Shown here piece after piece: positions 1 to 56,754 of a stretch of DNA of 64,000 nucleotides (the first letter of the stretch is position 1; each line of letters begins with the position of its first letter). Origin of the DNA: an uncultured Aquimarina sp. (GTDB taxonomy: Bacteria > Bacteroidota > Bacteroidia > Flavobacteriales > Flavobacteriaceae); contig CANMLS010000009.1 in the NCBI GenBank assembly GCA_947498785.1, positions 1 to 64,000 of the forward strand. Direction: 5' to 3'. The notes beneath the pieces were generated by a model. The model had not been told where the DNA came from. It saw only the letters and a program-made list of their open reading frames with translations, and ran no database searches. The position numbers and the translations under genes were made by a program.

Positions 1-75
1 AATATTTTACGAAAAATCAATCGCTTCTTAATAATTAAAAATATCTTTAAACTGTCCTAAGCATTGGGAGTATCA

Positions 76-1718: not shown

Positions 1719-4700
1719 TTAAATTTTAACTAGTTTTCTTTCTATACTTCCATTTATAGTTTCTATTCTGATAAAATATATACCAGAAGGAAGATCTGTA
1801 ATAGAGAAAGAATTGTTTTTCGTCTCAAGAATCTTTTTTCCTGTTACGTTATAAACAAGTACAAGATTTAAAGGTATATCAATGTTTACTTCTCCCGCTG
1901 TTGGGTTTGGATATATTCTGATATCTAAATCATCGTCATTAAGAATGGTGATTAGTGCACTATCTGTACTATTAATTTCTAGCGAAGTATTAGCTACATT
2001 AGATAAGGTAACGGTTACAGTTTCATCAGATTCTGGAGTAGCATCTTCTGTAGGTAAAATAGTAAATGTTTGTGTCTCACCTGCATTTCCTGTAAATGAA
2101 AGTGTTTGATTGATAATTGCGGTATAATCATTATCATCTAGTGTAGCCGTTCCATCAGTTGTGTTTATATCGACAGTAAAACCTCCAGGAGCTTCATTGT
2201 CCAGAGTGGCGATTACTGTTATTGCACCATCATCTTCATTAGCATTTACATCCTCTATAGTAATGGTCGCAATATCAGGATCTGTTATAGTAATTGTTGC
2301 TTCATCAGTAGTCCCAATAGTTACACTGGTGTTATTAGTATTAGTCATCGTAAGGATTACGGTTTCATCTAATTCTACAATATTATCATCAATAACTGAT
2401 AACGGAATGGTTATAGATGAAGTATTGGCAGGAAACATAAAACTAGATCCTAAATCATCATAATCTGTTCCCGAAATAGCTGTTCCCGTTGCAGAAATAG
2501 TAACCATAACAGGAATACTAAACTCATTCGTCGTATTCACTGTATACACTCCATTAGTAGTGCCTTCTTCTGCCTGTGTTGTAGCTGTGATAGAAAGTAA
2601 AGCTATATCATCGTCCGTAATGGTAACAGTAGCATTATCTGTACTACCAATGGCAACGGCACTGTTGTTTGTTCCTGTTAATGTTACAATAACAGTTTCA
2701 TTGCTTTCAACCAAATTATCAGCAATCACAGGCACAGTGATTGTCGCAGAATTGGTATTGGCAGGGAATGTAAAAGTTGTACCTAAAGCAGTAAAATCTG
2801 TTCCCGAAGTTGCTGTTCCTGTTACCGAAAGATTGACTGTCACGGGAGTACTAAATTGATTTGTTGTGCTTATTGTAAATAATCCATTAGTAATATTTTC
2901 TGCTGCTTGTGTAGTGGCTACAATAGAAAGTACCGCTGCATCATCATTCAAGATTGTCAATGTAGCACCATCGGTGATATTAATATCTCCTGAAGCAACC
3001 GTTGAAGGAGAAAGTCCACTCATTTCTATAATCACTGTCTCGTCTGGTTCAGAAGTTGCATCAGCCGTAGGGGTAATCGTGAAGGTTTCTGTTTCTCCTG
3101 CCGTTCCTGCAAAAGTAAGGGTTTGTGCTGTTACTGCACTATAATCGCTATCAGCCGTTGTTGCTGTTCCATCTGCTGTGCTGACATCTACATCAAACCC
3201 ACCATCTATAGCGTTATCCACTATAACAGTTACGGTAATGGCACCATCATCTTCATTACCGCTTACATTAGCGATAGTTACTGTTGCCTGATCATCATTG
3301 TTTATGGTCAGCGTAGCTCCATCTGTAATATCTATATCGCCAGAGGCAACCGTTACAGGGTTTAAGGCACTCATACTGATGGATGCGGTTTCATCAGCTT
3401 CTACTTTGGTATCCCCACCAAGGGTAATATTAAACGTTTCTGACTCGCCAGCCGTTCCTGCAAAAGTAAGGGTCTGAGCTGTTACTGTAGTATAATCACT
3501 ATCAGCTGTTGTCGCTGTTCCATCTGCTGTACTAACGTCTACATCAAACCCACCATCTACGGCATTGTCAGCAATAACGGTAATGGTTGCCGTACCACTG
3601 TTCTCATTCACAGTAACATCTGCTATGGTTACCGTAGCCTGATCATCATTGGTAATCGTTCCAGTACCAGTACTGTCTCCTATAATGACATTTGTACCTG
3701 TTGGATTCGATAAGGTTAGTGTAAGTGTTTCATCTATTTCAACGATTTGATCACTTGTAATGGTAATATCTACTGTTTTACTGGATTCTCCAGCGAGAAA
3801 GGAGAGTGTTGTCGTGCTAATGGCTGTATAATCAGAACCAGCTGTTGCAGATCCATTTGAAGTAGCATAGTCTACAGTAGCTCCTCCTGCTGGTGCTGGT
3901 GCATTTAAAGAAACAGTAAATTGTAAGGTATTCGTTCCAGCATCTCCTTCAGCTATTGATGGATCATTAACCGATATTGATATATTGTCATCATTCAAGA
4001 TTGTCAATGTAGCACCATCGGTGATATTAATATCTCCTGAAGCAACCGTTGAAGGAGAAAGCCCACTCATTCCTATAATTACGGTCTCGTCTGACTCTGA
4101 AGTTGCATCAGCCGTAGGGGTAATCGTGAAGGTTTCTGTTTCTCCTGCCGTTCCTGCAAAAGTAAGGGTTTGTGCTGTTACTGCAGTATAATCACTATTA
4201 GCCGTTGTTGCTGTTCCATCTGCTGTGCTAACATCTACATCAAACCCACCATCTACAGCGTTATCCACTATAACAGTTACGGTAATGGCACCATCATCTT
4301 CATTACCGCTTACATTAGCGATAGTTACTGTTGCCTGATCATCATTGTTTATGGTCAGCGTAGCTCCATCTGTAATATCTATATCGCCAGAGGCAACCGT
4401 TACTGGGTTTAAGGCACTCATACTGATGGATGCGGTTTCATCAGCTTCTACTTTGGTATCCCCACCAAGGGTAATATTAAACGTTTCTGACTCGCCAGCC
4501 GTTCCTGCAAAAGTAAGGGTCTGAGCTGTTACTGCAGTATAATCACTATCAGCTGTTGTCGCTGTTCCATCTGCTGTACTAACGTCTACATCAAACCCAC
4601 CATCTACGGCATTATCTACTATGAGTGTAATGGTTGCTGTACCACTGTTTTCATTCACAGCAACATCAGCTATGGTTACCGCAGCCTGATCATCATTGGT

Positions 4701-6659
4701 GATGATGCCTGTTCCTTGTCCGTTAGAAATAGTTGCATTGAAGGGAGTACTTAAGTTAACAAAAAACGATTCATTAGATTCTACTTTGGCATCTCCATTA
4801 ACTCCTACAGTAATCATTTTTGAAGTTTCTCCTGGTAAAAATATTACTCCGGTAGTCGTTACTTGATTATAATCACCATCTGCTATAGTAGCTGTATTAT
4901 CTGCGGTGGCATAATTGACAGTTACTGTTTTTCCTGAAGCTGCACTTAACGAGATCGTGAATGTAGCATTGGTACTTCCTGAGTTTCCTTCACTAATTGT
5001 AGGATCGCTAATGCTGAGTGTAGGTGTCGAGTCATCATCTAGAATGGTATAGGTGACTTGTTGTATTCCATTTTCTATACCGTTAGTAACACCAGTAATA
5101 TCTACAATTACTGTTTCATCATTTTCATCTAATGCATCAGAAACATTATTAAGATTTATCGTTCCTGTCATTGATCCTGCATTGATGGTTATAGAATTTG
5201 CACTACGGGTATAGTCTGTTGTATTGATAGCAGTGCCACTAAAGGCAAGGTTTACGGTTGTATTGGCTCCATATGTATTAAGAAGGGTAGCTGTAACAAT
5301 ATTATTACTAGTTGTTGATTCTAGATCACTGGCATCATCAATTGATAATGTGACCGAAGGAATGGCCGAAACATTTAAAGTAGCGATATAATTACCGCTA
5401 CTATTTACGGTTCCATCATTGACTTCAAATTGAAATGAAGTATTAACAGACCCGTTTTGGATATATTGTAAATTACCTGCATCTAGGTTGGCTTTGGAAA
5501 CGATACTTCCATTAGTTAACTGTTCACCAGCATCAAAATCATCTCCGTTGTCAGCGTCTATATATAAGGTTCCAACTGGCGGAACTATTTCTATTAATAC
5601 ATTATCCAGAGGATCACTATCGGTATCTGAGTATCCAAAATCTGCTGTGGAGAAGGTATAGGTTAAATCTTCGAATGGACCATTAGATGCAGTGAAACTA
5701 GAAGCCGTTGGCGGAGTGTTAGGTGCAATAATAGTAATATTTCTATCTTCGGTACCACTGCAAAGTCCTGAGGTTTCATACGTAACGGTATACATCCCAG
5801 GGGTACTTGCTGACACATCTATTGTTCCAGTAGATGTATTTATTATTAACCCTGCAGGAGATCTTGAAAAATCTCCTCCTCCAACTCCTGTAATAGTAGG
5901 CGTGGGATCTACATCTGTAGTTAAATACGAGGCAGCTGAATAACTAAAATTAGCATCTTCACGAGCAGTGATAGTAATGGTATGCGATCCACATGCACCT
6001 GGTGTAACGCCTCCTCCTTCTCCTCTAACAAAATATGTAATTGACCCTGATGTTGGAGGGGTAACAATTACCGAATTACCAGTTGTTGTGTCTATTTCAG
6101 TGCCTCCACAACTTCCTGTATATATATGCCATTCTGTAGCATCGTTTAAATTTCCTGTCCAAGTGAGTAATGCTGAATTACCACTACAAATAATAGGAGG
6201 GCCGTGATTCACTGAAGGCACGCTTGGAGGTGTAGTTAGAGAATTACCTGAAAGCGCAACCGAGTAGGAGGTAAGTACTCCGATGGATTGAAATTGAATA
6301 CTTATTGAATAAAAAGAACTTGCAGAAAGAGTTTGGGAAACTCCCGAAGATAGTGTAACCGAAGAAGGTACTGTGTTTCTTGCTGATGTGGCATAGGTAA
6401 ACAATGTAACCACTACATTATCAGACCATGTTGCTATAAATGTACCACTAGAACCATCAGCTATAATCCAATGATCTGTGGGGTCAGCAGTAGGACAGCT
6501 TCCAGCAAGACAAACATCACCAGTAATAGTGGTTGCTGATGAAACTGTTAACACAGCTAATTGAAGCACAGAATTGTTAGGCTCTGTTTCTGTGATTTGT
6601 GCATTAATAACTTGATTTCCCAAAAGAAAAACAAAAGAAAGAAGTAGTAGTTTTTTCAT
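1719..6659 (-). CDS. Giant secreted Calx-beta repeat protein with T9SS sorting tail
   Basis: A 1646-residue surface or secreted protein. Residues 1-20 are a signal peptide ending near INAQ. A region of about 120 residues follows that resembles pre-peptidase C-terminal domains (TEPNNS start), then a cadherin-like stretch at roughly 310-430, then about ten Calx-beta repeats, each starting with a pattern like VTIADVxVNENSG and ending in a DD-rich loop, typical Ca2+-binding beta-sandwiches. The last ~70 residues (from YPNPTAGEVNI to RKLVKI) are a type A T9SS sorting domain, so it is exported through type IX secretion and attached to the cell surface. Two adjacent repeats were duplicated almost exactly (DNA 2941-3653 and 3988-4700). 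Likely an adhesin or biofilm protein; no enzyme domain was seen. Confidence 0.9.
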   Translation of the reverse strand: MKKLLLLSFVFLLGNQVINAQITETEPNNSVLQLAVLTVSSATTITGDVCLAGSCPTADPTDHWIIADGSSGTFIATWSDNVVVTLFTYATSARNTVPSSVTLSSGVSQTLSASSFYSISIQFQSIGVLTSYSVALSGNSLTTPPSVPSVNHGPPIICSGNSALLTWTGNLNDATEWHIYTGSCGGTEIDTTTGNSVIVTPPTSGSITYFVRGEGGGVTPGACGSHTITITAREDANFSYSAASYLTTDVDPTPTITGVGGGDFSRSPAGLIINTSTGTIDVSASTPGMYTVTYETSGLCSGTEDRNITIIAPNTPPTASSFTASNGPFEDLTYTFSTADFGYSDTDSDPLDNVLIEIVPPVGTLYIDADNGDDFDAGEQLTNGSIVSKANLDAGNLQYIQNGSVNTSFQFEVNDGTVNSSGNYIATLNVSAIPSVTLSIDDASDLESTTSNNIVTATLLNTYGANTTVNLAFSGTAINTTDYTRSANSITINAGSMTGTINLNNVSDALDENDETVIVDITGVTNGIENGIQQVTYTILDDDSTPTLSISDPTISEGNSGSTNATFTISLSAASGKTVTVNYATADNTATIADGDYNQVTTTGVIFLPGETSKMITVGVNGDAKVESNESFFVNLSTPFNATISNGQGTGIITNDDQAAVTIADVAVNENSGTATITLIVDNAVDGGFDVDVSTADGTATTADSDYTAVTAQTLTFAGTAGESETFNITLGGDTKVEADETASISMSALNPVTVASGDIDITDGATLTINNDDQATVTIANVSGNEDDGAITVTVIVDNAVDGGFDVDVSTADGTATTANSDYTAVTAQTLTFAGTAGETETFTITPTADATSESDETVIIGMSGLSPSTVASGDINITDGATLTILNDDNISISVNDPSIAEGDAGTNTLQFTVSLNAPAPAGGATVDYATSNGSATAGSDYTAISTTTLSFLAGESSKTVDITITSDQIVEIDETLTLTLSNPTGTNVIIGDSTGTGTITNDDQATVTIADVTVNENSGTATITVIADNAVDGGFDVDVSTADGTATTADSDYTTVTAQTLTFAGTAGESETFNITLGGDTKVEADETASISMSALNPVTVASGDIDITDGATLTINNDDQATVTIANVSGNEDDGAITVTVIVDNAIDGGFDVDVSTADGTATTADSDYSAVTAQTLTFAGTAGETETFTITPTADATSEPDETVIIEMSGLSPSTVASGDINITDGATLTILNDDAAVLSIVATTQAAENITNGLFTISTTNQFSTPVTVNLSVTGTATSGTDFTALGTTFTFPANTNSATITVPVIADNLVESNETVIVTLTGTNNSAVAIGSTDNATVTITDDDIALLSITATTQAEEGTTNGVYTVNTTNEFSIPVMVTISATGTAISGTDYDDLGSSFMFPANTSSITIPLSVIDDNIVELDETVILTMTNTNNTSVTIGTTDEATITITDPDIATITIEDVNANEDDGAITVIATLDNEAPGGFTVDINTTDGTATLDDNDYTAIINQTLSFTGNAGETQTFTILPTEDATPESDETVTVTLSNVANTSLEINSTDSALITILNDDDLDIRIYPNPTAGEVNIDIPLNLVLVYNVTGKKILETKNNSFSITDLPSGIYFIRIETINGSIERKLVKI
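2941..3653. repeat. Internal duplication, copy A, in the Calx-beta gene
   Basis: About 713 bp that recurs at 3988-4700 with an offset of 1047 bp (349 codons), so the frame is kept. The two copies differ at only scattered positions. Each encodes two Calx-beta repeats and they are separated by a different one. Confidence 0.85.
3988..4700. repeat. Internal duplication, copy B, in the Calx-beta gene
   Basis: Partner of 2941-3653. Identity is high enough that recombination between the copies would delete or add exactly 349 codons in frame, changing the length of the surface protein. Confidence 0.85.
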
Positions 6660-7161
6660 ATATATGATTTTGAAATAGATATAAGTTATACGTTAAATAT
6701 TTTGATAGATATAGTAATATCACTTGCTATATAGTTAAGAATAGCAGTAGTAACCGTTTTATAAATAACCTTGTATATAAAGGGGGAGCGTAGTTATTTC
6801 TTCATATAATGTTGATTTAGTGTTTTTTATGTTTTAAACAATGCAGTACAAATAAAGATAAATTCTATATCAAAAACAAAGAAAAAATGTTTTTTATCGA
6901 TTTTATGTGTTTTTTATCGATGATTATGTTTTGAAAAGCTAAATTATATGTTAAATTTAGTCTTGGTTAATTATTAATATGAAGTATGCTTGACATACTA
7001 ATAGATGTACAATCGTTTATTTTTATTAAGATTTTATAGAGGGTGTTTAGACAAGTCTAAATAGTTTCTTTTGAGAGGTGTGAGGGGTGTACTAAAATGA
7101 GTACTGTTTTATCATATGCAGTCGATGGTTGTCTTCATATAAATATGTATGCTGACAAAGT
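6660..7161. other. Intergenic region with direct repeat and palindrome
   Basis: About 500 bp without a convincing gene. It must hold the promoter of the minus-strand Calx-beta gene. Visible structure: a 14-bp direct repeat TGTTTTTTATCGAT at 6888-6901 and 6908-6921, spaced 20 bp start to start; and a palindrome at 7046-7061 (TTTAGAC, AA, GTCTAAA). The start of a possible reading frame at 7097 is not supported by any homology. Confidence 0.5.
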
Positions 7162-40585: not shown

Positions 40586-41032
40586 TTATCCTTTTTTTCT
40601 TCGTTCCCGCATTTTTTGAAGAATACGTTTGTTAAAATCAGCTTCTGCTTTTATAAGTGCTATAATTTTTTTATTAGAAATTATTTGTTTTAAATCTGTA
40701 ATTAATTTCTTTCTGAATCTTGATTTTTTTTCTTGATTTTCAATGTGACTACTCAAAAAATCACCTGCTTGCTGATCACTTAATCCATCTGGTGAATTAT
40801 CCGCTTCTCTTAATGTTTTTAATTGTTTGCGTTCTTGACGTTTAAGTTTATGAACAGTTTCTTCATGATTATTATAAATTGGCCAAAACTTTTCTGCTTC
40901 TTTACTGGTCAAGTTTAATTTTTCTGTTAAATATGCAACTTTATATGCTTTCATTCTTTCTCTTGGTCCATTTTGTGCAAAGGAGCTGAAAGAAACAAAA
41001 ATTAAAAAAACAAATAGGACTACCTTTTTCAT
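40586..41032 (-). CDS. Periplasmic sensor-like protein of an ECF sigma operon
   Basis: A 148-residue exported protein with a signal peptide (ends SFAQNGP). The mature part is charged and helical (LNLTSKEAEKFWPIYNNHEETVHKLKRQERKQLKTL), resembling CpxP/Spy-like periplasmic helix proteins. It is the last gene of an operon with an ECF sigma factor and a membrane protein, a common arrangement in flavobacteria, and it may monitor envelope stress. Confidence 0.8.
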   Translation of the reverse strand: MKKVVLFVFLIFVSFSSFAQNGPRERMKAYKVAYLTEKLNLTSKEAEKFWPIYNNHEETVHKLKRQERKQLKTLREADNSPDGLSDQQAGDFLSSHIENQEKKSRFRKKLITDLKQIISNKKIIALIKAEADFNKRILQKMRERRKKG

Positions 41033-41041
41033 GTGTATGTT

Positions 41042-41572
41042 TTATTCTACAAATATAATGTCATCATTAATATCCTCATCGGATAAATAGTCTAATATCT
41101 CGTCGTCATTTATGAGTTCATCTTCAAATGCTTCGGTATAACTTATATCTTCATCTAATAAAGCAATCATTTCAGTACTACTTAATTCGATATTTCCTTC
41201 ATTAAAATAGTGATATATATCTGCTATTTCGATATCATCAAAATTTAGTTTAGATTCATTATGTCTAGATAATGAAATGATAATAGCAATCATTGCAGCA
41301 ATACCCGAAAGATATAAAATATTACGTTGAGTAAGTAATGAACGCACTTTAGTTTTGGATTGATCTTCGTTTACTTTGTTCATTACATTATCTTCTATCG
41401 TAGTAAAGTAATTTTCGGGAATTATAAAGCCCGAATCTATTTTGCTACCTAGAGTGGTATCATCATCAATGCGCGTAGATATTTTATCAAAAAGCTTGTG
41501 CTCAAACTCGTCAAAATAACCTTCGGGGACTTTAAAACCACCATTATTTTTATGTAAATTATCTTTCTTCAC
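41042..41572 (-). CDS. Membrane protein of the ECF sigma operon, anti-sigma-like
   Basis: A 176-residue protein. Two similar N-terminal cytoplasmic segments (GFKVPEGYFDEFEHKLFDKI and GFIIPENYFTTIEDNVMNKV) precede a single transmembrane helix at about 90-107 (ILYLSGIAAMIAIIISL) and a very acidic C-terminal tail. It lies between the sigma gene (31 bp gap) and the sensor gene (9 bp gap), so an anti-sigma or sigma-anchoring role is likely, though no ZAS or FecR domain is recognised. Confidence 0.78.
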   Translation of the reverse strand: MKKDNLHKNNGGFKVPEGYFDEFEHKLFDKISTRIDDDTTLGSKIDSGFIIPENYFTTIEDNVMNKVNEDQSKTKVRSLLTQRNILYLSGIAAMIAIIISLSRHNESKLNFDDIEIADIYHYFNEGNIELSSTEMIALLDEDISYTEAFEDELINDDEILDYLSDEDINDDIIFVE

Positions 41573-41603: not shown

Positions 41604-42152
41604 TTAATCATTTTTTAAAAATTCTTCTATTTTTTTAGAAGCTAAGTGATATGATGCTTTTAGAGCACCTTCACTTGTTTCTAAAATTTCAGACATTTCT
41701 CTATATTTTAATTCCTGAAAATATTTCATGTTAAAGACCTGTTGCTGCTTTTGTGGTAAAGTGGCTATTGCTTTTTGTAATTTTAATTGTATTTGATCTC
41801 CCTCAAAATATATGTCAGCTTCTAGGTTCTGAATCAATCGTTGATTTAACTCCTCATTGCTAATCGCATATTTTTTTACCTTTTGATTAAGAAATGTGAT
41901 GGACTCATTCGTAGCAATGCGATATAGCCATGAATATAATTTACTGTCTCCTTTGAATTTTTTTATGTTTTTAAAGACTTTAATAAAGACATTCTGAAGT
42001 ACATCATCTGTGTCATCATGATTTTTCAACATATTCCTTATGTGCCAATAAAGCCTTTGTTGATATAAAGCAACAAGTTTCCTAAAGGCTTTATCATTGT
42101 CCATTCCTGACTGTAATATAAGGAGTAGGTCTTGTTCTTCTTTAGTGTTCAA
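41604..42152 (-). CDS. ECF RNA polymerase sigma factor
   Basis: A 182-residue sigma-70 family member. Region 2 (ALYQQRLYWHIRNMLKNHDDTDDVLQNVFIKVFKNI) and region 4 (LPQKQQQVFNMKYFQELKYREMSEILETSEGALKASYHLA) are intact. It is first in an operon with an anti-sigma-like membrane protein and a periplasmic sensor, so it should direct an envelope-related stress regulon. It has no SusC/D partner here, unlike the sigma gene at 18.4 kb. Confidence 0.92.
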   Translation of the reverse strand: MNTKEEQDLLLILQSGMDNDKAFRKLVALYQQRLYWHIRNMLKNHDDTDDVLQNVFIKVFKNIKKFKGDSKLYSWLYRIATNESITFLNQKVKKYAISNEELNQRLIQNLEADIYFEGDQIQLKLQKAIATLPQKQQQVFNMKYFQELKYREMSEILETSEGALKASYHLASKKIEEFLKND

Positions 42153-42322
42153 TAGTTAATCAGTTTTATTATAGAATCTATATCAATAAGACTAATGTAC
42201 ATAAAAAAGGTTTAATTATGTTTTAGAATTGTATATTGTTTACATTATTTGTAAGAATATGTAGGAATAAATGTTAAAAAGAACATTTTTTTGCATTTTT
42301 AACGGATAAAATGCATTTTTTG

Positions 42323-42353
42323 TTTGGTAGATTAAAAATAAATATTATCTTTA
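42323..42353 (+). promoter_or_regulatory. Bacteroidota-type promoter of small RNA 1
   Basis: TTTG (42323-42326), 19 bp, then TATCTTTA (42346-42353), close to the TTTG / TAnnTTTG consensus. Predicted start of transcription near 42360. Confidence 0.65.
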
Positions 42354-42359
42354 CAGTGT

Positions 42360-42487
42360 GATAATGATTTAGTTCTTTCATTCCCCCCAAAGTGAAAGTT
42401 TTAATAAAAGTGAGTTTTAATTTTAGAATAAGCCCCTAAATTAAGATGATTTGTGTGAAGAGAAAGAGTGCGAAAGCACTCTTTTTT
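42360..42487 (+). ncRNA. Small RNA 1 of a tandem pair
   Basis: About 128 nt, ends inferred. Three hairpins in order: CTTTCA/TGAAAG (42375-42398) with a loop containing six C; TTAATTTTAG/CTAAATTAA (42417-42444, one bulge) with another C-run in the loop; and the terminator AAGAGTGC/GCACTCTT (42464-42483) with a GAAA tetraloop and T run. The copy at 42662-42790 keeps all three, with C-rich loops in the same places. No convincing protein is encoded. It could be a trans-acting regulatory RNA using its C loops; the Flavo-1 family known from flavobacteria is the first to test. Confidence 0.72.
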
Positions 42488-42623
42488 CATTTTTTTAATT
42501 ATTGTGGAGCAAATCATTTTTATATGCTAGCATTGTAAATAGTAGGAAAAAGATTACTTTTATGAAATTTATTATATAATTTATAGATTAAGAGTTGTTT
42601 TGATAGATAAAAATCAAAATCTA

Positions 42624-42655
42624 TTTGCTTTTATCTAGTTTTTAATATATATTTA
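42624..42655 (+). promoter_or_regulatory. Bacteroidota-type promoter of small RNA 2
   Basis: TTTG (42624-42627), 20 bp, then TATATTTA (42648-42655). The same arrangement as in front of small RNA 1, although the surrounding DNA differs, which argues that each copy is transcribed on its own. Confidence 0.65.
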
Positions 42656-42661
42656 TACAAT

Positions 42662-42790
42662 AGTCAAATAATAAGTCCTTTCATTTCCCCCAAAGTGAAA
42701 GTTGTTAATAAGAGTGAGTTTTAATTTTAGATATACCCCTAAATTAAGATGATTTGTGTGAAGAAGAAGAGTGCGGAAGCACTCTTTTTT
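42662..42790 (+). ncRNA. Small RNA 2 of a tandem pair
   Basis: Homologue of small RNA 1, about 300 bp downstream and roughly 90% identical in the transcribed part. Hairpins: CTTTCA/TGAAAG (42678-42701) with five C in the loop; TTAATTTTAG/CTAAATTAA (42721-42747) with CCCC next to the loop; terminator AAGAGTGC/GCACTCTT (42767-42786) with a GGAA tetraloop. GAAA and GGAA are both GNRA loops, so the variation keeps structure. Its 3' end is 28 bp from the stop codon of the convergent ABC transporter gene. Confidence 0.72.
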
Positions 42791-42817
42791 GTTTTTAAAA
42801 TAATGATTGTTAGTAGT

Positions 42818-44644
42818 TTATCTGTCTAATGACTGCATGGTTACTAATTTTTGATACACCCCATTTTTAGAAATCAATTCATCATGCGTCCCTTTTTCAA
42901 CAATTTTTCCTTTTTGCATTACAACGATTAAATTTGAATTTTGTATTGTAGATAGTCTATGTGCAATCACAATACTAGTTCTGTTTCTCATCATATTTTC
43001 TAATGCAGACTGTACCAATCTCTCACTTTCTGTATCCAAAGCAGAAGTTGCTTCATCGAGAATCATAATAGGAGGATTTTTTAATACTGCTCTGGCTATT
43101 GATAAACGCTGCTTTTGACCCCCGCTTAATTTGTTACCACTATCTCCTATGTTGGTTTCTATTCCAGATTGTAAATCTTTTACAAACTCCCAGGCGTTTG
43201 CAATTTTTAAAGCGTCGACGATTTCTTCATCAGATGCTGTTTGATCACCCACTAATAGATTATTTTTTATAGTGTCATTAAATAAGATAGAATCTTGAGT
43301 AACCAATCCCATAAGGTCTCTGAGAGATTTCTTTGTTAAATCTCTTATGTCTGTACCATCAATTTTAATACTACCTTCATTTACATCATAGAAGCGAGTC
43401 ACCAAGTTTGCTATGGTTGATTTGCCACTTCCTGATTGTCCAACTAATGCAACTGAACTCCCTTTGGGAACTTTTAACGAAAAATTGTTTAATACAAATT
43501 CATCTTCATATTTAAAGGAAATATTTTCTAATGAAATGTCTGTATTAAAATCATTCTTCTCGATAGCGTCTTTTTTATCTTGTAGAGGAGAAGATGTATT
43601 AAGAATTTCTAATACACGTTCTGCTGCAGCATTTCCTCTTTTTACTCCATAACTGGCTTTAGAAATAGCTTTAGCAGGTGTAAGGATGTTATATGCAAGT
43701 CCCATGTAAACAATAAAAAGTCCTGGATCTAGTGTTTTTTCGACTAATACCATCTGGCCTCCATACCATAATAAAATGGCAATCACTGTGATGCCAAGAA
43801 ATTCACTAGTAGGAGATGCTAGATTTTGTCTATTGAGTAAGGAATTTGAATAATTATAAAAGCGTGAAGTAGATTCCTGAAACTTTTTTCCAAAGATTTT
43901 TTCTGCCGTAAACCCTTTAATAACTTTAAGTCCACCCAAAGTTTCTTCTACTATAGAAAGAAAAAAACCTTGTTCTTGTTGTACCTTATCTGAATGCTTT
44001 TTTAATTTTTTTCCAACTAAAGAAATTAAAAACCCTGATATAGGAATAAAAATAAAAACAAATAAGGTGAGCTTTAGACTGATTAAAAGCATAGTGAGTA
44101 TCGTGAAAAGAATAGTCAAAGGTTCTCTTACAATAAGTTCCAAAATAGATAAAAAGGAGTGTTGAATTTCTAATACATCGGTAGATATTCTAGCCATGGT
44201 ATCTCCTTTTCGTTTTTCTGAGAAATATGACAATGGTAATTCAACGGTTTTGTCATACAATTCATTACGAATATCTTTTAGAACCCCATTCCGAAGAAAT
44301 GTAATAAAATACATAGCCAAATAGCTGAAAATATTTTTAAGGAAGAACATACTTATCACAAGAATAACCATAAAAATTAGTACATCGTCATTACCTTGGT
44401 CTGCTTTTTGGGTTACAAAATAATTAAGATAATCTTCTCCATATTCCTTAACTTTTAATATGCCTTCCCATTTTGGTTCGATCCTTACTTTTTCTGTTTT
44501 TCCGAATAAAACATTTAACATGGGAAATAAAGATACCATAGATAATGTACCAAAAAGTGCGTAAAAAACATTAGCGGTAATATTTAATATTGCATATAAT
44601 CTATAAGGTTTCGCAAAGCGAAGAATTTGTTTAAAATAGTTCAT
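42818..44644 (-). CDS. ABC transporter, MsbA-like lipid exporter half-unit
   Basis: A 608-residue fused membrane and ATPase protein that would act as a homodimer. Six hydrophobic helices fill about residues 15-330 (intracellular loop STDVLEIQHSFLSILE). The nucleotide-binding domain has Walker A GQSGSGKST (about 402), signature LSGGQKQR, Walker B IMILDEATSALD and the H-loop IVIAHRLSTI. Family members export lipid A core or other lipids; which lipid cannot be told. It is followed by no obvious terminator on its own strand other than the small RNA region. Confidence 0.9.
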   Translation of the reverse strand: MNYFKQILRFAKPYRLYAILNITANVFYALFGTLSMVSLFPMLNVLFGKTEKVRIEPKWEGILKVKEYGEDYLNYFVTQKADQGNDDVLIFMVILVISMFFLKNIFSYLAMYFITFLRNGVLKDIRNELYDKTVELPLSYFSEKRKGDTMARISTDVLEIQHSFLSILELIVREPLTILFTILTMLLISLKLTLFVFIFIPISGFLISLVGKKLKKHSDKVQQEQGFFLSIVEETLGGLKVIKGFTAEKIFGKKFQESTSRFYNYSNSLLNRQNLASPTSEFLGITVIAILLWYGGQMVLVEKTLDPGLFIVYMGLAYNILTPAKAISKASYGVKRGNAAAERVLEILNTSSPLQDKKDAIEKNDFNTDISLENISFKYEDEFVLNNFSLKVPKGSSVALVGQSGSGKSTIANLVTRFYDVNEGSIKIDGTDIRDLTKKSLRDLMGLVTQDSILFNDTIKNNLLVGDQTASDEEIVDALKIANAWEFVKDLQSGIETNIGDSGNKLSGGQKQRLSIARAVLKNPPIMILDEATSALDTESERLVQSALENMMRNRTSIVIAHRLSTIQNSNLIVVMQKGKIVEKGTHDELISKNGVYQKLVTMQSLDR

Positions 44645-48712: not shown

Positions 48713-49037
48713 ACGATAAAAATGTTTTTTGGTTGTCTAAAAAACCGTTGGTACTCAAATATAATAAAAGGTTGTGGCCTGAATAAAAATAGCTTTTTAT
48801 CGGTTAATTTAATGATTTTATCGTATATTTATTTTCCAATTACGGTTTAACCGTAATATTAATATGGTGTGAACAGTTGTAAAATATGGAGGTTCACGAG
48901 AAATAAGTTGAAATGTTAAATATTTGAAATATAGTATTTTATGATTGAAAAGTGTTGAATAAAGTTGTAAAATGCTTTATTTGAGATTAAGATTTCAATT
49001 TAAAATGGTATAAAAAATATTAACTAAACCAATATTT
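48713..49037. promoter_or_regulatory. Divergent intergenic region with a 19-bp palindrome
   Basis: About 325 bp between a DUF4199 gene (minus) and a lipoprotein gene (plus). A perfect inverted repeat at 48839-48857 (ATTACGGTT, one base, AACCGTAAT) lies 126 bp and 180 bp from the two start codons and could be an operator. No gene was seen. Confidence 0.5.
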
Positions 49038-55742: not shown

Positions 55743-55806
55743 TCTAAGTTTTTATGTTATATTGTATAAATAAAATTTTATTCCCCAATAAAATCTACAT
55801 GAAGTA

Positions 55807-56754
55807 ATGAAAACGATTAAGAAATTTTTAGTTCTTCTGGGTGTATTATTTACATTTGGAATTTTAGTTAATGCTACACAAGACACTCCGGTAAAACCAG
55901 TTGAACAAGAAGTTCTTGAAGAGAAACTGGTTAATGATTACAATGTTTATGCTATTCCAATGCCAGATAACCTCAATTTTTCTGGAGAATTGGTGCCAAT
56001 AGAAAATCCAGATATAAGAGAAAGAATGGATAGAGAACTATTGGTGAATACTTATTGGCAATCTAATGGTCTACTCCTTTTTAAAAGAGCAAATAAGTAC
56101 TTCCCTATTATAGAACCAATACTTAAAGAGCAAGGTGTTCCTGAGGATTTTAAATACTTGGCAGTTATAGAGAGTAGTCTTACTCAAGCGGTATCTCCAG
56201 CAAAAGCAACAGGGTTTTGGCAAATATTAAAAGGAACAGGAAAGGAATATGGTTTAGAGGTAAATCAGAATATAGATGAACGTTATCATATAGAAAAATC
56301 TACACTTGTAGCTTGTAAATATCTAAAGAAAGCTAAGGAGCGTTTTGGGTCTTGGACACTTGCAGCAGCAGCTTACAATGCGGGTAGGGCTGGTATAAAT
56401 AAACAATTGGTAAAGCAAAACGCTTCATCATATTATGATTTGTTATTAGGTCAAGAAACTGGAAGATATGTTTTTAGAATTGTAGCAGTTAAAGAGATTT
56501 TAAGTAATCCCAAGCGATACGGTTTTAATTTTAGTAATGAAGATCTATATAAGCATATTCCTACATTTAATGTATTGGTAGATGAACCAATTGCAGATTT
56601 TAATAAATTTGCCGAGCAGTATGATATAAATTATAAAATATTGAAGCTTCATAACCCATGGCTTAGAGAAGCGCATTTAAATAATGCTACTGGTAAGGAG
56701 TATCTAATTAAAATTCCAAGAGAAGGATATTATAAAACAGGAGTTGGGCAATAA
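55807..56754 (+). CDS. Membrane-bound lytic transglycosylase, MltD-like
   Basis: A 315-residue exported protein (signal segment FLVLLGVLFTFGILVNA). The SLT domain has the catalytic Glu at residue 122 in AVIESSLTQAVSPAKATGFWQI and the later AAAAYNAGRAGINK motif. It cleaves peptidoglycan glycan strands with formation of 1,6-anhydro ends. A LysM repeat was not recognised with certainty, though the C-terminus (ILKLHNPWLREAHLNN...YLIKIP) resembles one. Confidence 0.9.
   Translation: MKTIKKFLVLLGVLFTFGILVNATQDTPVKPVEQEVLEEKLVNDYNVYAIPMPDNLNFSGELVPIENPDIRERMDRELLVNTYWQSNGLLLFKRANKYFPIIEPILKEQGVPEDFKYLAVIESSLTQAVSPAKATGFWQILKGTGKEYGLEVNQNIDERYHIEKSTLVACKYLKKAKERFGSWTLAAAAYNAGRAGINKQLVKQNASSYYDLLLGQETGRYVFRIVAVKEILSNPKRYGFNFSNEDLYKHIPTFNVLVDEPIADFNKFAEQYDINYKILKLHNPWLREAHLNNATGKEYLIKIPREGYYKTGVGQ

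Follow-up and report, generated by a model that had tools for sequence, protein, structure and literature searches.

Hairpin loops of CsrB/RsmZ-type decoy RNAs carry a motif that is also found at mRNA start codons, and these RNAs are encoded by multiple gene copies; the C/U-rich loops of LhrC-type sRNAs pair with Shine-Dalgarno regions and block translation. In the phylum of the locus described here, FopS and GibS of Bacteroides are multi-copy paralogous sRNAs with sigma-A-type promoters of their own, and the paper on them discusses dosage and has the R1′ seed in the 5′ region of FopS pairing with susC start regions (PMC11697453). In the same bacterial family, the Rfp sRNAs of Flavobacterium psychrophilum are independent sRNAs, among which Rfp18 is predicted to act via one stem-loop (PMC9723704). 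The open-licence literature yielded no paper on Aquimarina sRNAs, Flavobacteriaceae C-loop sRNAs or a decoy sRNA of this phylum.

The locus lies in a 64,000-nt stretch of DNA from an uncultured Aquimarina sp. (hereafter the window; assembly GCA_947498785.1, contig CANMLS010000009.1, positions 1 to 64,000), where two predicted sRNA genes stand in tandem.

42360 to 42487, + strand: sRNA copy 1, ~128 nt, called from the homologous copy, fold z and terminator
42662 to 42790, + strand: sRNA copy 2, ~129 nt, called from the same three kinds of evidence
42323 to 42353, + strand: promoter of copy 1, TTTG-19-TATCTTTA
42624 to 42655, + strand: promoter of copy 2, TTTG-20-TATATTTA
42375 to 42398, + strand: hairpin 1 of copy 1, C6 in the loop, matched by the other-genus model R2 (below)
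42678 to 42701, + strand: hairpin 1 of copy 2, C5 in the loop, matched by R2
42410 to 42460, + strand: genus-conserved block of copy 1, second hairpin (loop AAUAAGCCCC) and single-stranded GATGATTTGTGTGAAG
42714 to 42763, + strand: equivalent of the second-hairpin block in copy 2
42460 to 42487, + strand: terminator of copy 1
42763 to 42790, + strand: terminator of copy 2

The likeness to CsrB/RsmZ-type decoys would lie in the multiple gene copies and in a loop motif that is also seen at the start codons of a few mRNAs, here only candidates for regulation; their motif is GGA, bound by CsrA, whereas the loops here have C-runs, with the motif CCCC(AA). As in FopS and GibS, the paralogous copies have their own sigma-A-type promoters, and several conserved copies with promoters and terminators of their own mark the set as a multi-copy sRNA family; FopS, however, is ~65 and 70 nt and encoded at separate loci, whereas the RNAs predicted here measure ~128 nt (~90 nt in other genera), outside the 65-70 nt range of FopS/GibS, and are arrayed, ECF-linked and equipped with a CCCC loop (PMC11697453). 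Several near-identical copies are also seen in LhrC1-7 of Listeria (PMC11697453). LhrC loops, likewise C-rich, pair with Shine-Dalgarno regions. In the group studied here, translation starts without dependence on such regions (PMC9723704). For the Rfp sRNAs, compared by description only, the available part of the source describes no C-loop, array or ECF link (PMC9723704).

The two copies (42362-42494 and 42674-42796) match at 90% identity across 123 nt, in agreement with a sequence-only reading of this DNA that had given ~90% and had assigned to each copy a terminator and a promoter of the form TTTG-(19/20)-TAnnTTTA. Both promoters, which are of the Bacteroidota type, are present in the window at these spacings, and the two terminators are the only terminator-like sites in 42150-42830 (shuffled mean 0.0). 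The same reading held the DNA between the copies to be non-homologous, which is true of the two window copies but not of Aquimarina at large, where conserved boxes lie within the 130 bp upstream of a copy. The predicted 5′ end of copy 1 would fall ~7 nt past the −7 element, and that of copy 2 is a prediction too. On folding, each copy beat all 200 shuffles (z −4.77 for copy 1 and −6.00 for copy 2), and a 141-nt spacer control gave z +0.54. The genome of the window has no third copy, the next-best match being 18 bases long (E 0.054). Rfam 15 was searched including Flavo-1, the family that had been suggested as the first candidate, and no family reached its gathering score in the window; the best sub-threshold matches were to unrelated families. 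The conserved protein frame that would have spoken against an RNA gene was not seen: a short GTG..TAA frame, inspected by eye, does not survive the indels of window copy 2 and of two further loci (L012, L024), and the protein-coding reading was rejected.

The suggestion that the twins stand in an ECF sigma neighbourhood was confirmed by Pfam, and the surrounding genes are as follows.

41604 to 42152, − strand: gene of an ECF sigma factor, oriented divergently to the array (Pfam Sigma70_r2, Sigma70_r4_2)
41042 to 41572, − strand: next gene after that of the sigma factor, its product anti-sigma-like only in its position (no Pfam match)
40586 to 41032, − strand: Spy/metal-resistance-like periplasmic protein, a weak assignment (Metal_resist E 2.5e-4, under the curated cut-off)
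42818 to 44644, − strand: ABC exporter gene, convergent with the array

Within Aquimarina, homologues of the RNA occur throughout our sample. A DNA search of 91 genomes gave matches in 52, which are all 52 Aquimarina genomes (own genome included; weakest match 6.8e-5), and none in the 39 genomes from other genera of the order, while a 23-mer of the conserved core was found in 91 stretches of an 84,980-species collection, 89 of them from Aquimarina and the remaining two from an uncultured Flavobacteriaceae bin and a Bacteroidia bin. Across these 91 loci and the window, nhmmer returned 223 matches, some of them partial. Arrays reach nine copies at a spacing of roughly 260-320 bp, in some cases wider, which supports the theme of dosage raised by the sequence-only reading. 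In 49 of 92 loci the array has the window's ECF sigma gene, its ABC exporter or both as neighbours, and the other 43 lie elsewhere or are cut ends. Spread by phage was rejected, the conserved 20-mer being absent from all viral contigs searched.

Conservation was counted over the 175 distinct sequences among 200 full-length copies. GATGATTTGTGTGAAG is intact in 169 of these, and the C-rich loops proposed to be conserved have kept a C-run of at least four in 168 (hairpin 1) and 160 (loop 2). The proposed change of the terminator tetraloop from GAAA to GGAA is present, but the GNRA form is not kept in the genus, being found in 52 of the 158 terminators that could be scored; the terminator stem changes with its pairing preserved (inner-stem variants TGC 94, CGT 58, TGT 5, TAC 1). 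Double changes affect only 3 of 35 pairs in a 25-row Aquimarina alignment, and the evidence for structure inside the genus is therefore modest.

A model built from Aquimarina copies only (R1) found just two of the 299 family genomes, each belonging to Aquimarina itself, and the RNA seemed confined to the genus before ECF loci from elsewhere in the family were inspected. Relatives of the protein encoded after the sigma gene occur in 81 of 100 family genomes (one genome per genus), and we examined the divergent flanks in 69 of the 80 other genomes that have them. Such a flank often carries a shorter relative of the RNA, made up of a pair of direct DNA boxes, a promoter of the sigma-A type, a hairpin that exposes CCCC in its loop, and a terminator. 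When the 69 loci were screened automatically for a CCCCA-loop hairpin with a terminator behind it, 32 passed on the sRNA strand and none on the other, compared with 0.40 of 69 in dinucleotide shuffles. Covariation, modest within the genus, is clear here: in hairpin 1 of 32 other-genus units, 94.5% of cells are paired and 7 of 7 pairs show double changes, with a covariation value of 0.69 against 0.33 when shuffled and at most 0.27 when slid. Since the aligned units (27 and 32) were selected for CCC or CCCC, their invariant loop is no test of loop retention; of 45 dual-box promoters (39 of 69 loci) chosen regardless of C, 38 are followed by CCCC at no more than 75 nt (3.7 after shuffling) and one by GGGG (1.3 after shuffling), and four of the seven lacking CCCC are the first unit, unit A, of two-unit loci. 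In 30 of the 69 ECF loci no dual-box promoter was seen. A coding reading was rejected for these genera as well, the ATGs within the sRNAs opening frames of unrelated length (by eye), and Rfam gave no match in 20 other-genus loci (of 29 in a first set). The 5′ tail of many other-genus sRNAs is ACCTACTTATG or a near form, and the Aquimarina sRNA is without this CUACUUA tail. In three genera (L336, L346, L350), C-loop hairpins, two of them in L346, precede a similar reading frame of 41-42 aa.

The second model (R2), built from the 32 other-genus units with none from Aquimarina, matched the two window copies at 45.0 bits (E 4.8e-6) and 38.7 bits (E 6.3e-5), and the copies accordingly share the dual box, sigma-A promoter and CCCC-loop hairpin of that model. 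In 24 Aquimarina loci R2 gave 57 matches, 53 at E ≤ 0.0074, where nhmmer had given 58 copies. At E 0.01 it matched 137 of 299 family genomes and 110 of 236 genera, a count that includes up to 32 training genomes and two of the own genus; an origin confined to the genus was rejected. A scan across the phylum at E ≤ 0.001 matched 3 of 296 genomes, all Flavobacteriaceae, at a threshold that the own genome misses and at which at least 20 Flavobacteriaceae genomes gave no match. Taken as sequence comparison, these data give good support to a Flavobacteriaceae family of putative sRNA genes that stands divergent to an ECF sigma operon and has been amplified in Aquimarina.

Upstream of the promoters, the two window copies differ in which boxes they have retained.

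42289 to 42321, + strand: two direct DNA boxes, TGCATTTTT..GATAAAATGCATTTTT, immediately 5′ of promoter 1
42584 to 42623, + strand: degenerate counterpart of these proximal boxes, 5′ of promoter 2 (R2 match 42584-42705, 45.0 bits)
42250 to 42268, + strand: distal box of copy 1, direct repeat TGTAAGAA / TGTAGGAA
42542 to 42557, + strand: distal box of copy 2, inverted repeat GTAGGAAAAAGATTAC
6843 to 6920, − strand: dual-box promoter without a C-hairpin (R2 41.1 bits)

The proximal boxes of copy 1 probably correspond to the boxes TCGATnAArTG / CGATAAAATGCA seen in other genera, and copy 2 has retained its distal box and has degenerate proximal boxes. Site A accounts for 136, site B for 42 and site C for 11 of the 194 distinct upstream regions, which makes 189 with an assignment. 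Of these, 158 have a TTTG-18..21-TAT(C/A)TTT promoter (A 108, B 39, C 11), where mononucleotide shuffles give 1.6, 0.1 and 0.2. A GATAAAA-type box occurs in 114 of the A, 38 of the B and 8 of the C regions (shuffled 0.7, 0.5 and 0.1). GTA(A/G)GAA half-sites peak near −110, −120 and −131 of the Aquimarina upstream regions; between −110 and −132, with a phasing of 10-11 bp, many first copies carry them in direct and many later copies in inverted orientation. Neighbours at sites B and C, assigned by eye from protein sequence, include an E1 dehydrogenase, a second ECF/FecR/TonB receptor, and BlaR1-like and DUF456/DUF58-like proteins. The promoter at 6843-6920 lies upstream of a gene (1719-6659) for a Calx-beta protein of 1646 aa that bears a T9SS sorting tail (Pfam), and a weak dual-box promoter (48745-48824, − strand, 24.8 bits) precedes a DUF4199 gene close to the array.

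R2 also matched promoters of mRNAs, and 18 shorter R2 places were read. A CAP lipoprotein type, found in other genera, lies downstream in 11 of them (L266-L273, L277, L281, L283; CAP domain by Pfam for L266 and by eye for the other ten), and the CAP leaders place a hairpin of type CATCATGCCCCAAATTTGATG immediately before the start codon. Among the rest, L274 and L279 have C-loops ahead of other exported-looking proteins, L275 has CCCC without a clear stem, L276, L278 and L282 have none, and L280 is an sRNA unit. Because R2 itself favours C-hairpins, leaders found by it are not an unbiased sample. A leader of the window has a hairpin of this kind as well.

55775 to 55794, + strand: CCCC-loop hairpin ATTTTATTCCCCAATAAAAT in the leader of an SLT transglycosylase gene (55807-56754), 13 kb from the array

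In 26 Aquimarina orthologues of this gene, a C-loop stem of at least 5 bp is found in 17 leaders and CTACTTA (RNA CUACUUA) in 17, both together in 15; the window's own leader has the hairpin without CTACTTA, and those of L460 and L462-L465 have neither. In the genomes of two of these loci, L464 (G005) and L465 (G007), the sRNA is represented by a single weak match (1.3e-11), and their SLT proteins are the most divergent among the 26. In the own genome, a Beta-lactamase-family serine hydrolase gene starts with AAACCTACTTATG and has a CCC-loop hairpin behind it.

The motif occurs at the start codons of the SLT and CAP genes, which would be the candidate counterparts of the mRNAs regulated in Csr/Rsm-type systems, and is rare genome-wide. 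CCCC-loop hairpins were found in 6 of 1043 sampled leaders (2 of 326, 1 of 341 and 3 of 376), where other loop cores gave 3 (GGGG) or, in some cases, higher numbers (e.g. TGGG, 17); CTACTTA was found in 2 of the 1043 start regions, against a mean of 4.2 for its 210 permutations. GCCCCAAA followed by ATGA occurred 82 times against 38 in a reversed control, with none in two of seven genomes, and 20 of these places inspected by eye included five clear leader hairpins, most places being intragenic or before no long frame. A general leader code was rejected on the rarity of both elements, from which it also follows that any regulon is small.

The sRNA and the leaders share sense, not complementary, sequence, and the sRNA therefore cannot pair antisense with these leaders through the C-loop. 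The sequence-only reading had taken the exposed C-runs as a means of pairing with G-rich targets, and we regard a role as seeds that pair with G-rich mRNA start regions and block translation as unlikely. The retention of C-runs of at least four in both loops would fit such a role, and loop 2 has two start-region sites at or below −14 kcal/mol where 0.5 are expected, its best five sites being somewhat stronger than those of shuffled loops (−13.94 versus −12.16 ± 0.81 kcal/mol). Over 376 own-genome start regions (~8% of the genome), however, mean pairing is weaker than for shuffled loops, at −3.55 versus −4.72 for loop 1 and −4.69 versus −5.25 for loop 2, so that little support remains for G-rich targets in this sample; the gene with the best site (P0001) is present in 2 of 27 Aquimarina genomes, the own included, and GGGGG-N0-8-ATG is not enriched (200 versus 201 in the reversed control). 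A G-rich partner of another kind is offered by loci with two units, of which we assembled 23, leaving out L419 (same place as L190) and L432 (single). In L168, L177, L214, L235, L413-L418 and L420-L431, a unit A whose terminator loop is G-rich (mostly GCGGGGGCU) stands in tandem with a C-loop unit B. The G-rich loop, able to pair with C-loops, is present in 22 of the 23 loci, a point that also counts for seed pairing. An antagonistic pair, in which GCGGGGGCU of unit A in some genera kisses the AGCCCC loops of unit B and the first sRNA thereby acts as a sponge for the second, is in our view rather unlikely; the antagonist would be missing from single-unit genera and from the own genome. A 6-bp perfect match to the downstream C-run in 13 of the 22, persistence of the G-loop in 7 of the 22 where unit A has no C-run of at least three, and the exact G-loop with a matching terminator stem in ~13 of 199 family genomes (counted by eye among the 36 that show the pattern) are consistent with this antagonism. 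Against it, G-loop and C-loop do not covary, shuffled G-loops match equally well in 6 to 105 of every 200 trials at a locus, the own genome lacks the pattern, and 4 of the 23 loci were chosen after their sequence had been read. We treat the complementarity of units A and B as a lead towards a possible sRNA sponge and not as a result.

The location of the C-loop hairpin near the putative 5′ end in several leaders and sRNAs would also suit a 5′ RNA stabiliser or an initial sequence linked to the promoter, with no titrated factor; a stabiliser, however, would depend on its stem, and here the letters of the stem vary freely whereas CCCC is retained, which makes this explanation quite improbable. 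A functionless repeat element or chance duplication, as tandem copies and dispersed sites might suggest, is very hard to reconcile with the covariation, the terminators, the promoters conserved at three kinds of sites and the family-wide position, and we give it almost no credence. The simplest link between sRNA and leaders, judged on their shared sequence, would be mimicry of a bound element, and we tentatively prefer, at somewhat less than even confidence, to see the twins as a tandem pair of trans-acting sRNA genes whose products act as decoys and titrate a factor at C-loop leaders.

According to this decoy model, the array would be transcribed into RNA presenting one or more C-loop hairpins, and a few mRNAs of envelope genes would have the same hairpin at their start codons. 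From the hairpin common to both we infer that the sRNA could act as a decoy, titrating a putative factor, either protein or G-rich RNA, that would otherwise be bound to those leaders. Array size would set the dose, and the conserved upstream boxes may set the timing of sRNA production. Whether these elements amount to a CsrA-independent, Csr-like code, made up of CCCC-loop start-codon hairpins of envelope genes, ECF-linked sRNAs and, in some genera, a G-loop anti-sRNA, is more speculative, and we hold this wider proposal to be rather unlikely. The RNA family itself was previously unlisted, with no Rfam entry, and it has covariation support, a conserved operon neighbour and a presence in 110 of 236 sampled genera. 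It provides a defined loop motif usable for pulling a binder, together with named candidates for regulated mRNAs; if the Csr-like code were true, the sRNAs would set the free level of a factor that reads CCCC-loop hairpins.
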